A DNA stretch of 64,000 nt, taken from assembly GCF_007858435.1 (NCBI RefSeq), contig NZ_VIGW01000002.1:124001-188000 (forward strand). The letters are read 5' to 3'. Position 1 is the stretch's first letter; each line of letters begins with the position of its first letter. Made by a program: the position numbers and the translations under genes. Source of the stretch: Tsukamurella asaccharolytica. Lineage in GTDB: Bacteria > Actinomycetota > Actinomycetes > Mycobacteriales > Mycobacteriaceae. Below are positions 1-23,951 of this stretch, piece after piece. Under the pieces are notes generated by a model, which had not been told where the DNA came from, did no database searches, and saw nothing but the letters and a program-made list of their open reading frames with translations.

Positions 1-1
1 T

Positions 2-934
2 GGTGAAGCGCGGCTCGAAGCCGAGCTCCGCCCGCATCCGGGTGGTGTCGAAGGCGTTGCCGAAGCTGAGATACGCGAGCTGCACCTTGTCGGTGGTGCC
101 GCGGCCCCGGCCGCGGATCGCCGCGACGGCCGGGCCGAAGGCGGGATTCGTGACCGGCAGCGGCACGCGCCCCGCAAGGCGGATGGCCTGCGACATCGAG
201 ATCGCACCGTCGCCCGCGATGTTGTAGGTGCCGGGCTTTCCCGCCACCACCGCGTGCTCGAGGGCGCCCAGGGCGTCGTCCTGGTGCAACAGTTGCAGCC
301 GCGCGTCACGGCCGATGATCGACGGCACGACGGGCCGCTCGAACAGCGAGCCGAGCAGCGTCTCGATGTTGGGGCCGAGGATGGGCGCGAGACGCAGAAT
401 CGTGAGGTCGATGTCGCTGCGGCGGCGGGCCATGCTGCGGGCGTACGCCTCGGCGTCGAGCAGATCACGCGGGTGTCCGCTGGCCGCGCTGCCGCTCACC
501 AGATCCTCGGTGACGAGGGCGGGGTTGCGCGAGCGGGAGCCGTACACCTGGGTCGACGAGCGCATCACGACCAGCTTCACCGTCTCCGACTTCTGGCACG
601 CGGCGAACACCCGCATGGAGCCGAAGACGATCGCGTCCTTGGTGGACGCGGACGGGAAGTGGTTATCGGTGACCGATGTCGAGCAGTGCACGACGGTGTC
701 GACCTCATTGGTCGCCATGATCTTGCCGAAGATGTGACTGCGGTAGTCGACACGGATGAATTCCGCGGGCTCCATCCGCCGGTGCATCGCCTTTGTCGGC
801 GGGACGGCGTCCACGCCGATCACGCGCTCGATGTCGGGACGCTGCGCGAGCCGGCGCACGAGGTAGCCGCCCACGAAGGTCGACGCGCCCGTCACCATGA
901 CGACGCGCGGCGCTGTGACCACCGACTCACTCAT
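2..934 (-). CDS. NAD-dependent epimerase/dehydratase, GalE2-like (3' end cut by window)
   Basis: An extended short-chain dehydrogenase reads leftward from the ATG at 934 and leaves the window without a stop, so the C-terminus is missing. The N-terminal Rossmann motif reads VMVTGASTFVGGYLVRRLA, followed by a VDTVVHCS strand and an STQVYGS segment where the family's active-site serine lies. The central glycine of the usual GxxGxxG motif is a Thr, as I recall also being non-Gly in mycobacterial Rv0501 (GalE2). It lies downstream of bS22, as Rv0501 does relative to Rv0500B. The sugar substrate is unknown; a UDP-sugar epimerase role is family inference only. Confidence 0.85.
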   Translation of the reverse strand, partial: MSESVVTAPRVVMVTGASTFVGGYLVRRLAQRPDIERVIGVDAVPPTKAMHRRMEPAEFIRVDYRSHIFGKIMATNEVDTVVHCSTSVTDNHFPSASTKDAIVFGSMRVFAACQKSETVKLVVMRSSTQVYGSRSRNPALVTEDLVSGSAASGHPRDLLDAEAYARSMARRRSDIDLTILRLAPILGPNIETLLGSLFERPVVPSIIGRDARLQLLHQDDALGALEHAVVAGKPGTYNIAGDGAISMSQAIRLAGRVPLPVTNPAFGPAVAAIRGRGRGTTDKVQLAYLSFGNAFDTTRMRAELGFEPRFT

Positions 935-20990: not shown

Positions 20991-22202
20991 TCATCGTGGC
21001 ACTGTGGGCGCGGCGGGCCCTTCTCTCGCCAGGAAGTTGTACATGACGTGCCAGAGCCACTCGGCGGGCCCTCGGTCGAAGTGGCGCAGCCACAGCCACG
21101 AGAACGCGATCAGTATTGCCGAGATCGAGACCATGGCCACGGTGGTGGCCGCGAGATGGGGCAGCTGCGCGAACCAGGGCTGATCGAAGAATGTCCGCGA
21201 CCCGAGCACACCGAGAATGTTCTGCAAGAGATAGCAACTCAACGCCATTCGCCCGACATGCGACACGGTGCGCCCGACTCGGCCGAACTCTCGCCGGACG
21301 GCGTATTCGGCGACCAGGGCGAGCAGACCGAACGACACGCCCCACGCGAAGAAGTAGCGCGCCCAGTGGCCGTGCTCGGGAGCGAGGAAGTACGTGGTCA
21401 CGAAGTCCAACGGGAGTGCGAGACCGAAGCCTGCGACCATGAGGACGTAGCGCAACTTGCGCCGGTGCGGCTCGAACACCCCATGCCGGTAGAGCAGACC
21501 ACCCACCAGGAAGAGCGCCCCAGCCATGAACACCACCGTGGTGAACTCTGCATTCACAATGAGGGGTTCAGGGAAGCTACGCAGGTTGCTCAGCACGAGG
21601 TCCCACCACGTCCCCGTCGCCGGATCAGCGTGGCCCATCGCCTCCGGTTCCGGATTCGGTGTCCGACTCGGGCGGGCGCTCCCGTCGGACGCCGAATCCT
21701 GCGACGACAGGCTGAGGTGCGCCATGTACCCGTCATGAATCACCATGAACAACAGGGCGAACCAGATCTGAAAGCGGTCGGCGAACAGGACCAGGAATGC
21801 CACCACGAAGGCGACCACGGCGTACGCGCGCAAGACGTCGAACTGCACGACGAGGATGTAGTTCAGAAGACCGTCGATGAACAGCAGCAGGCAGCGGATG
21901 GGGTACTTGCCCGGCCACCGCTTGCCCCGACGCACCGCAGATCGATGCTGGATCGCCAGACCGATGCCGAACATGATGGTCAGCAGCCCTAGGAATTTTC
22001 CATTAGGGAACCACTGCGCGAGCCCCGCGAGATCAGGTCCGTGATCCGAAGGGTCGCGCGCAGCGGTGGTGAAGATCCAGATATTCGACGCCAGGGTGCC
22101 CAGGATCGCAATGCCACGCAGGACATCCAGTGCTGCCAGGCGGCGCCCGGGATCCGACGATCGCTCTTCAGCGGCGGGGTCGAGCAGAGGCGGGGAACTC
22201 AT
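20991..22202 (-). CDS. DUF418 membrane protein (YeiB-like)
   Basis: A 403-residue polytopic protein. The N-terminal acyltransferase-like part is LAALDVLRGIAILGTLASNI. The C-terminal DUF418 region has VAEYAVRREFGRVGRTVSHVG, then MALSCYLLQNILG and FDRGPAEWLWH, the typical ending of the family. It has about 9-10 membrane helices. The function of DUF418 proteins is unknown. It is convergent with the esterase gene, 29 bp apart. Confidence 0.88.
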   Translation of the reverse strand: MSSPPLLDPAAEERSSDPGRRLAALDVLRGIAILGTLASNIWIFTTAARDPSDHGPDLAGLAQWFPNGKFLGLLTIMFGIGLAIQHRSAVRRGKRWPGKYPIRCLLLFIDGLLNYILVVQFDVLRAYAVVAFVVAFLVLFADRFQIWFALLFMVIHDGYMAHLSLSSQDSASDGSARPSRTPNPEPEAMGHADPATGTWWDLVLSNLRSFPEPLIVNAEFTTVVFMAGALFLVGGLLYRHGVFEPHRRKLRYVLMVAGFGLALPLDFVTTYFLAPEHGHWARYFFAWGVSFGLLALVAEYAVRREFGRVGRTVSHVGRMALSCYLLQNILGVLGSRTFFDQPWFAQLPHLAATTVAMVSISAILIAFSWLWLRHFDRGPAEWLWHVMYNFLAREGPAAPTVPR

Positions 22203-22339
22203 ACCTCAAGACTCGGCGGACCGCCGGCCGCCCGGTACTGGCGACCTCGCTGAAATCACCAGCCGAGCGGCTGGAATCCCGCCTCGATCGCGGCAGCGAG
22301 GTGATCAACCCCCTGGCTCAGGGGCGGGCGGTGGAGGGA

Positions 22340-22379
22340 CTGCTGCACCCCCGGAAAGGATTACGGATCCGTGCAGCAG
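22340..22379 (-). terminator. Possible terminator after gdx
   Basis: CTGCTGCAC (22340-22348) pairs with GTGCAGCAG (22371-22379) around a 22-nt loop, 13 bp beyond the gdx stop. There is no T-tract, so this is a weak call. Confidence 0.35.
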
Positions 22380-22391
22380 CCCCGCCTCCTT

Positions 22392-22706
22392 CTAGTGAGC
22401 GAGCTTCAGTCCGACGACCCCGCCGATGATCGCGACGATGCAGAGAATCTTTGCTATCGAGGCAGTTTCCGCGCCCGTCGCCATCGCGTAGATCACCGTG
22501 AGGGTCGCACCAATGCCCACCCACACCGCGTACGCAGTGCCAGTCGGAAGGTCGCGCATTGCGAGGGCGAGACCGACCATGCTTACTACGAGGGCCACGA
22601 CAAAGACGACCGTAGGAGTAAGTTTGGAGAATCCTTCCGACTTGCCCAGTGCCGTGGCCCACACGGCCTCAATGATTCCGGAAGCGATCAGGATGATCCA
22701 CGCCAT
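22392..22706 (-). CDS. gdx: Guanidinium exporter, SMR family (Gdx/SugE)
   Basis: A 104-residue small multidrug resistance protein from MAWIILIASGIIEAVWATAL, with GGAGG upstream. It has four membrane helices. The essential membrane glutamate is E13 in TM1, and the GTAYAVWVGIGATLTVIYAM signature is in TM3. SMR proteins of the SugE/Gdx class export guanidinium in exchange for protons. The substrate call rests mainly on the guanidine-III riboswitch directly upstream; without it the protein could be called only an SMR transporter. Confidence 0.9.
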   Translation of the reverse strand: MAWIILIASGIIEAVWATALGKSEGFSKLTPTVVFVVALVVSMVGLALAMRDLPTGTAYAVWVGIGATLTVIYAMATGAETASIAKILCIVAIIGGVVGLKLAH

Positions 22707-22727
22707 GGTGAGTACCCTCCTCAGGTA

Positions 22728-22770
22728 CACACCGTCTTTTCGCTGGCCGGGTACGGTGTGCCTCGTCCGG
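22728..22770 (-). promoter_or_regulatory. Guanidine-III riboswitch (ykkC-III class)
   Basis: In the gdx leader the minus strand reads CCGGACGAGGCACACCGTAC, then CCGGCCAGCGAAAAGACGGT and GTG. This matches the guanidine-III aptamer: CCGGACGAGG, then CCGUACCCGG, then AAGACGG. CACACCGT pairs perfectly with ACGGTGTG; in the published Thermobifida example, as I recall it, the same helix is GCGCCGU with ACGGCGC, so the bases changed in compensated pairs. The aptamer ends about 13 nt before the GGAGG of gdx, so it probably controls translation. Confidence 0.9.
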
Positions 22771-22854
22771 GATGTCACTAGCGACGCTTAGAACCATACA
22801 CGGAAAGGGTGAACTCGCAAGACGGAGTGACCGCCAATAGAGGCTTGGGCGAAC

Positions 22855-23106
22855 TCAGCCGCGACGCTCCTCCGTGACTACCGACAGATCGCGACGCAAC
22901 GAGCGCTTCCTGTGCGTGACGTAGAGAACGGTCCATCGTGTGGTCAAGTTCGGCAACAGTTCCTTGTCCCGCAACTTGACGCGGACGGCCACCAGATTGC
23001 TCAGCCGATCCTCTCGCGCGATCACATGCTCGGCATACGCTGTCACCGATTCACGGTCCCACCCCGTCGGCGCGACAACACTGCGCACTCGCGGCAATCC
23101 ATCCAC
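22855..23106 (-). CDS. Small protein of unknown function, 83 aa
   Basis: The frame opens at a GTG exactly 6 nt after TAGAAT, with TTGGCC 18 bp further upstream: a complete promoter placed for a leaderless mRNA. The product (MDGLPRVRSVVAPTGWDRES...) is basic and has no membrane segment or known motif. Third codon positions are mostly G/C but less so than in core genes. I recognise no family. The promoter fit is the main reason to keep it. Confidence 0.5.
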   Translation of the reverse strand: MDGLPRVRSVVAPTGWDRESVTAYAEHVIAREDRLSNLVAVRVKLRDKELLPNLTTRWTVLYVTHRKRSLRRDLSVVTEERRG

Positions 23107-23112
23107 GTCAGA

Positions 23113-23142
23113 ATTCTAGACCGGCACCATTCGACAGGCCAA
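23113..23142 (-). promoter_or_regulatory. Sigma-70-type promoter for the 83-aa gene
   Basis: On the minus strand TTGGCC (-35) is followed by an 18-bp spacer and TAGAAT (-10). The GTG start comes 6 nt later. Confidence 0.5.
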
Positions 23143-23951
23143 AATGCGCCGCGTCAGGGCCGATCCGCTTCAGGGGAGCGCGTTTTCACAGCCCGAAACC
23201 TCGCCACAGGGCGCCGATCACAGATCTCATGCTGAACAGGAGCTTGACGGTTTTCCCAGCAGGTGAACTGAACACTGTAAGACAATTGCCACAAACGGTC
23301 CTCGCGGCGCACTGAACGGGCTCCGCGTTCCACCCCTTCGCATCCGACCAGCAGCTGCCTGCGATACCCCCGGCGTACCGGCCGCGGATTCGCAGAAGCA
23401 TTGAATCTGGCTGTGCAACAGGGCATTCTGAAATGCCCAACCGGTCGGTCCGCGGTCCGCGCGGCTCAGCGCAGATCGCCGCGCGGCCGCCCGAGTCGAA
23501 CATTCGGCACCAGGCGATGACGTTGCGCTCGGATAGTCGGCGACGGGACAGAAAAGGCCGAAATGCGACTATTTCGCTATCTCGCTCGACATAGTCGCTG
23601 AGTTTGACTTCATCCCGAATCGTCAGACTTTCCACTCTTCGGTTGACGACTACAACCGAGACCACTCACCACGCCCCGCGGGGCAAGAAGGAGCAGCGCA
23701 CCTACCGTCAGCAGCGCCCCTGGCAGGACCTGTCAACCGGAGAAGCGGCGGGTCCAAACTCAACCCTGATGCACTTCAGGATGAGTTCGCGAGAACCCCC
23801 TGGTTATCAGAGCTTTGCAACCGGCGCAAGCGCTTGCCGAAATTGATTGTTTTTACAGCTAACCAGAGCTCGGCTTGGTAGCGTCCACGGCGCGGGTCAC
23901 ATCAGACACCGCTTTCGAATGACTGACCAGTCAAATCAATGGAGGCGCACC
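23143..23951 (+). other. About 0.8 kb without a convincing gene
   Basis: The open frames here (for example 23186-23665 minus and 23604-23846 plus) have no recognisable domain, no ribosome site and codon use unlike the flanking genes. The stretch is visibly richer in A/T than the core genes. It contains a 12-bp palindrome at 23826-23837. I see no tRNA, integrase or transposase. Confidence 0.5.
23826..23837. promoter_or_regulatory. Perfect 12-bp palindrome upstream of the DUF1269 gene
   Basis: GCAAGCGCTTGC reads the same on both strands and lies 114 bp before the GTG of the DUF1269 gene. It looks like an operator half-site pair of the LacI/GntR type (inference). No regulator gene is adjacent. 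Confidence 0.35.

Follow-up and report, generated by a model that had tools for sequence, protein, structure and literature searches.

A Guanidine-III riboswitch ahead of a Gdx-type transporter gene in Tsukamurella asaccharolytica, and the complementarity of its P2 strand to the ribosome-binding site

The window, by which is meant the whole 64,000-nucleotide stretch of Tsukamurella asaccharolytica DNA analysed here, carries on its minus strand a short SMR transporter gene headed by a Guanidine-III aptamer. The features of this unit, in the order in which they would be transcribed, are as follows.

22793..22820 (-): promoter-like stretch, TTGCGA at 22820-22815 and TATGGT at 22798-22793 with 16 nt between them, read by eye
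22726..22790 (-): Guanidine-III aptamer RF01763 with its short, variable hairpin on the 5' side (cmscan)
22747..22770 (-): strands of the P1 pseudoknot, CCGG 22770-22767 and CCGG 22750-22747 (sequence and 151 leaders)
22765, 22764 and 22754 (-): pocket bases C6, G7 and G17 respectively, in T. fusca numbering (pocket from PMC5696562)
22728..22760 (-): P2 helix, CACACCGT 22760-22753 with ACGGTGTG 22735-22728 (two-sided changes, covariation)
22707..22733 (-): alternative hairpin masking the ribosome-binding site (RBS), 5' arm 22733-22723, loop 22722-22718, 3' arm 22717-22707 (-15.5 kcal/mol, shuffle p 0.0035)
22716..22721 (-): Shine-Dalgarno AGGAGG, 9 nt ahead of the start codon (sequence)
22392..22706 (-): gdx-type gene for an SMR transporter of 104 aa, starting with ATG (Pfam PF00893)
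22330..22389 (-): strong GC-rich hairpin right after the gdx stop codon, with no T run (-36.7 kcal/mol, z -2.96)

The covariance model that had been named as the check on the original prediction matches at 22790-22726 on the minus strand with 56.7 bits against a gathering score of 36 bits (RF01763, model positions 1-67 of 67, E 4.7e-9 as computed by cmscan for the 64 kb window), and this is the sole Rfam match above gathering in the whole window. A permissive rescan of 22300-23300 returned RF01763 again together with one weak microRNA match far under threshold. The conserved blocks that had been named are present, CCGGACGAGG at 22770-22761, CCGTACCCGG at 22756-22747 and AAGACGG at 22738-22732, all on the minus strand; the interval first given, 22392 to 22770, holds these blocks and the gene but stops at the first CCGG base, and the aptamer runs on to 22790. 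The match ends 19 nt from the SMR start codon. Helices are named here after the T. fusca crystal paper (PMC5696562), P1 being CCGG/CCGG and P2 the long helix. In that crystal RNA the guanidine pocket is formed by C6, G7 and G17, and these ligand-contact bases are all intact in the window; the aptamer would be expected to bind guanidinium. The Guanidine-III riboswitch upstream of the SMR gene is a genuine and ordinary member of its known class with its usual gene partner.

For comparison, 224 loci were collected, 18 of which were dropped for want of a motif-plus-SMR pair, and the remaining 206 gave 151 distinct leaders. The pocket bases are kept in 151/151 leaders, a count partly selected for by the search pattern. 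The earlier description of the long helix as fully paired is correct for the window, CACACCGT pairing with ACGGTGTG with zero mismatches, as is that of compensated changes relative to Thermobifida, P2 pairs 12 and 14 being A-U in the window and G-C in the T. fusca crystal RNA. In the helix as first drawn, an eighth pair (nt 11) also forms in the window but is not a conserved one, being present in 43/151 leaders against a shuffled mean of 54.4; in T. fusca nt 11 is one of the third-strand bases of the triplex (PMC5696562). The window's compensated changes belong to a broader covariation of P1 and P2 across the 151 leaders. With the register fixed, nt 14 is paired in 145 leaders (shuffled mean 98.6, maximum 111), nt 12 in 129 (111.0, 119) and nt 13 in 82 (63.1, 77), each count exceeding all 1000 shuffles; these statistics serve as a guide and not as probabilities, because the leaders are related and the rows non-independent. 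All four P1 pairs are kept in 146/151 leaders, the first pair occurring as C-G, T-A or G-C and the second as C-G or T-A.

The 104-aa protein matches PF00893 (Multi_Drug_Res) with 70.4 bits at a cut-off of 23.7. Its top PDB match is 6wk5, which is taken here to be Gdx-Clo, over the full length with 72.8 bits, compared with 39 for the best EmrE-type chain. E13, W16, S42, Y59 and W62 are all present, as they are in all 151 riboswitch-linked SMR proteins of the set; the first and the last three of these are functional positions conserved in SMR proteins, whose Gdx members also conserve W16, with Gly or Ala in its place in the Qac subtype (PMC7695847). The protein had been regarded as an otherwise generic SMR protein made into a confident Gdx by the riboswitch. 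"Generic" is not borne out by the Gdx marker W16 or by the PDB scores, and the protein is recognisable as Gdx without the riboswitch because the Gdx residues are present; the linkage strengthens the assignment but does not create it. The NCBIfam SugE equivalog NF008512 missed its cut-off (97.7 vs 126 bits), and the protein is therefore filed as Gdx by residues and linkage, outside that equivalog. An in-genus control used 10 Tsukamurella SMR loci lacking the upstream motif, position 16 being taken as the residue three places past the glutamate. The residue there is Ala or Gly in six and Ser in one; one locus combines Trp at position 16 with Phe at position 62. The remaining two overlap and show a single tandem pair of genes, in which position 16 is Tyr and Val. 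The tandem SMR genes at L223 and L212 (G153) have no Guanidine-III motif upstream and no W16, and possibly form a heterodimeric SMR. Judged by its residues, the window protein would act as a guanidinium/H+ antiporter.

A Guanidine-III match is present in 101 of the 151 family genomes sampled, in 99 of them above the cut-off. Among the best 80 of at least 531 confirmed relatives of the SMR protein the motif lies directly upstream in 77, 76 by pattern and one (L053) by Rfam; the loci lacking the pattern motif were L008, L051, L053 and L080, and the Rfam match to L053 leaves 3/80 without. Three of the dropped loci, L088, L167 and L168, have a downstream gene other than SMR. At L088, in another family genome (1279-1566 and 1577-2728), a Guanidine-I aptamer on the minus strand and a Guanidine-III aptamer on the plus strand stand back to back with some 120 bases between them, the latter heading an arginase-family gene that is a guanidinase candidate. 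At L167 an aptamer (613-680) lies upstream of an arginase-family gene (1-522, minus strand) with no SMR in its place, and at L168 a Guanidine-III aptamer occurs with no SMR gene.

Within the genus, at least one Guanidine-III is found in 15/16 Tsukamurella genomes, and two above threshold occur only in the window's genome (an 81-contig assembly of 4.12 Mb). The second Guanidine-III/Gdx unit (L185/L001) lies on contig C63 at 203236-203299 on the minus strand with its own SMR gene next to it. A weaker second match in another genome, G148, was taken as chance (31.2 bits, under gathering, no adjoining SMR gene). No Guanidine-I switch was found elsewhere in the window's genome at E<=0.001. A protein tree of 104 columns with many open forks places the window copy beside those of G113 and G053 (99/79 support) and apart from the C63 copy, which weakly favours within-genus transfer or an old duplication over a fresh duplicate. 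The neighbouring DUF418 and DUF1269 proteins match elsewhere in the genus at 64% or less, and for this reason the extra copy is not dateable by synteny.

A DUF418 membrane-protein gene adjoins gdx in both units, at 20991-22202 on the minus strand in the window (same strand) and at L185:3766-4917 on the plus strand in the C63 unit (facing), and it stands beside gdx in five further Tsukamurella genomes. A DUF418 profile derived solely from Tsukamurella sequences had a match near gdx in 0 of the best 80 loci, within flanks of 5 kb or less, and a general gdx-DUF418 association was dropped on this result. A defence-system scan of two proteins returned nothing.

The gdx gene is probably transcribed alone, behind a leader of some 80 nt. 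The TTG of the promoter-like stretch is at the same position in 14 of 17 other leaders compared by eye; a strict consensus scan found no promoter. The hairpin at 22330-22389 is a possible transcript end or non-canonical terminator. A scan for intrinsic terminators found none in 22300-22950 that would point to transcriptional control, and an intrinsic terminator was dropped as the expression platform.

Another expression platform is suggested by the leader, where a second helix could form that takes one of its strands from the aptamer and spans the RBS. UACCUGAGGAGGGUACUCACCAUG lies directly 3' of the P2 3' strand, and GGUG.GUACCU can pair with GGGUAC.CACC; the loop of this hairpin then holds GAGGA from the Shine-Dalgarno region, and its helix stops at the AUG. 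The hairpin's energy was compared with 2000 shuffles of the linker in which the P2 part and the Shine-Dalgarno were held in place, and these gave its p of 0.0035. From the P2 3' strand, counted at eight pairs, the hairpin takes up five bases, or six with a ninth G-U pair, and the full hairpin and P2 are mutually exclusive because these bases are shared; a residual hairpin of -4.8 kcal/mol is left once P2 has formed.

Excess complementarity of the P2 3' strand to the RBS region is seen in many leaders. Linker shuffles over the 151 leaders gave a mean z of -1.71, with p<=0.05 in 69 and p<=0.01 in 29; the excess is absent in 25/151 (shuffle p>=0.5), so the hairpin is not universal. Swapping the downstream arm between leaders raised the mean energy from -8.72 to -6.69 (sd 0.17, 200 permutations). 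When the swap was confined to 15 non-redundant leaders, 0/1000 permutations were as low in energy and 9/1000 reached the real number of cross pairs. Against a reversed linker the real arm had the lower energy in 120/151 leaders, the higher in 30 and a tie in one, and without the 15 Tsukamurella-type rows it was lower in 105 and higher in 30 of 136.

Individual base changes can be followed in a table of 14 Tsukamurella-type leaders, one of which is from Nocardia thailandica and from which L018 was omitted as having no homologous hairpin. All 14 have C or T at the centre of the shared strand, and seven of them have T. Opposite this T in P2, five rows carry A and two carry G; opposite it in the hairpin, three carry A, three carry G (a wobble) and the window row carries a mismatched T, at a place where the 13 other rows of the table form a standard or wobble pair. 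In Tsukamurella L142 and L144 the shared strand and both of its partners change jointly, from G-C-G to A-T-A. Only the window, among the 14 rows, has one hairpin pair flipped from A-T to T-A, and its hairpin has G-C pairs at the outer end. L018 (Tsukamurella sp. 8F) and L196 have a deviating leader and a weak masking hairpin (p 0.12). A literature search turned up no published announcement of the shared-strand hairpin, and because of the limited depth of that search the hairpin is not claimed as new.

A likely translational ON switch by RBS masking can be sketched from these elements. Without ligand, the P2 3' strand would pair with the bases around AGGAGG up to the AUG and hide the ribosome site. 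Guanidinium at C6, G7 and G17 would lock P1, P2 and the triplex, and the locked aptamer would withdraw the P2 3' strand, leaving the ribosome site free and turning translation on. A build-up of guanidine would thus lead to more of the Gdx-type guanidinium/H+ antiporter. The direction of the switch, as presumed here, and the general idea are already published, being stated in PMC5696562 and PMC12186494. The former puts forward that folding removes competing structures and uncovers the ribosome site, which is 16 nt off in T. fusca; the latter, a review, states that Guanidine-III frees the Shine-Dalgarno and shields the mRNA from RNase E. In-line probing reported in PMC5696562 had both stems paired without ligand and the third strand as what becomes ordered, so a disengagement of P2 counts as unsupported by that probing. 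Secondary-structure prediction, in programs that model neither the P1 pseudoknot nor the triplex, puts P2 in the minimum-energy fold of the window leader (z -0.39). In 15 segments of this leader the predicted ligand-free fold is dominated by the mask in 7 and by P2 in 8, depending on the RNA ends; in 15 segments of the C63 leader the mask dominates in 15/15, and the hairpin of the C63 unit is predicted to be the firmer of the two.

Taken together, the leader is most probably a real Guanidine-III riboswitch that raises the output of a Gdx-type guanidinium/H+ antiporter upon guanidine through masking of the RBS by the P2 strand, a reading drawn from sequence and held with good, though not full, confidence. 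A wider reading is put forward tentatively, at somewhat less than even confidence: the P2 strand may have a dual role, in the pocket and as an anti-RBS strand, with P2 and the RBS co-evolving as a three-strand system in actinobacteria, and the two units, with a weak mask in the window and a strong one on C63, may provide two guanidine set points for two Gdx pumps.

The same features of the window copy would also fit a paralogue that is leaky or in decay, with the window unit as a surplus one, largely expressed without guanidine, beside a regulated C63 copy. The T-T mismatch at a position paired in the 13 other rows of the table, the dominance of P2 over the mask in 8/15 segments where the C63 leader shows the mask in 15/15, and the rule of one above-threshold copy per genome in the genus all lean that way. 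On the other side stand the two-sided A-T to T-A flip and the G-C outer pairs of the hairpin, an intact aptamer and an intact reading frame that keeps all five Gdx residues. The paralogue explanation is regarded as rather unlikely. An effect exerted chiefly on mRNA stability, with the folded aptamer obstructing RNase E scanning and RBS masking secondary, is given slightly less credence and considered unlikely. Obstruction of RNase E is stated for Guanidine-III in the 2025 review PMC12186494, citing Richards and Belasco 2021, and, provided that the promoter-like stretch is a true promoter, the aptamer would lie close to the start of the transcript; such an effect does not account for the surplus pairing potential of the P2 3' strand with the RBS region, and RNase E protection and RBS masking may operate together.

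More remote is a change of ligand or substrate, with the aptamer now recognising a different ligand, or with quaternary ammonium compounds, in place of guanidinium, as what the SMR protein exports. Guanidine-III tolerates methyl-, amino- and ethylguanidine (PMC5696562), and the SMR protein is under the NCBIfam SugE cut-off. Against this, C6, G7, G17 and the core are unchanged, and W16 is present where the Qac type has Ala or Gly (PMC7695847), as do 6/10 of the motif-less Tsukamurella SMR loci. Such a shift appears very improbable. Chance co-occurrence of the conserved blocks has a negligible probability and is excluded by an E-value of 4.7e-9 at the expected site ahead of an SMR gene, together with the same arrangement in 77 of the best 80 relatives and matches in 101/151 family genomes.

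On the riboswitch reading, this organism would sense guanidine and takes its place among the numerous actinobacteria in which sensing and expulsion of guanidine are probable; the natural source of this metabolite is still an open question (PMC12186494). Computation shows the aptamer, its covariation, the Gdx markers and, in many leaders, more complementarity of the P2 3' strand to the RBS region than expected; the added value lies in the comparative evidence for the switch strand and in the two units of one genome. The set of 151 leaders makes concrete and testable what has been suggested in print, the freeing of the ribosome site by Guanidine-III, and the paired units would permit a direct comparison of switch set points.

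Among known systems the closest in RNA structure is the Guanidine-III riboswitch of Thermobifida fusca (PDB 5NWQ, PMC5696562), which has the blocks CCGGACGAGG, CCGUACCCGG and AAGACGG in common with the window, as well as the H-type pseudoknot and the pocket of C6, G7 and G17. Both have 7 P2 pairs, of which pairs 13 and 15-18 are identical; nt 11 is C in the window and U in T. fusca, and the loop preceding GACGG is one base longer in the window. The gap between the P2 3' strand and AGGAGG is six bases in the window, whereas the 3' end of the T. fusca riboswitch is 16 nt from the ribosome site (PMC5696562). Other Tsukamurella units (for example L005 of T. ocularis, L142 and L144) have the aptamer, Shine-Dalgarno, gene and RBS-masking hairpin in the same order; the window copy differs in being additional to the C63 unit and in a hairpin with one T-T mismatch and one flipped pair. 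On the protein side, the structure of the SMR guanidinium/H+ antiporter Gdx-Clo is described in PMC7695847. The window protein matches Gdx-Clo over its full length and has E13, W16, S42, Y59 and W62 in common with it; it differs as an actinobacterial sequence, at 72.8 bits, that is linked to Guanidine-III. Gdx-Clo is linked to Guanidine-I.
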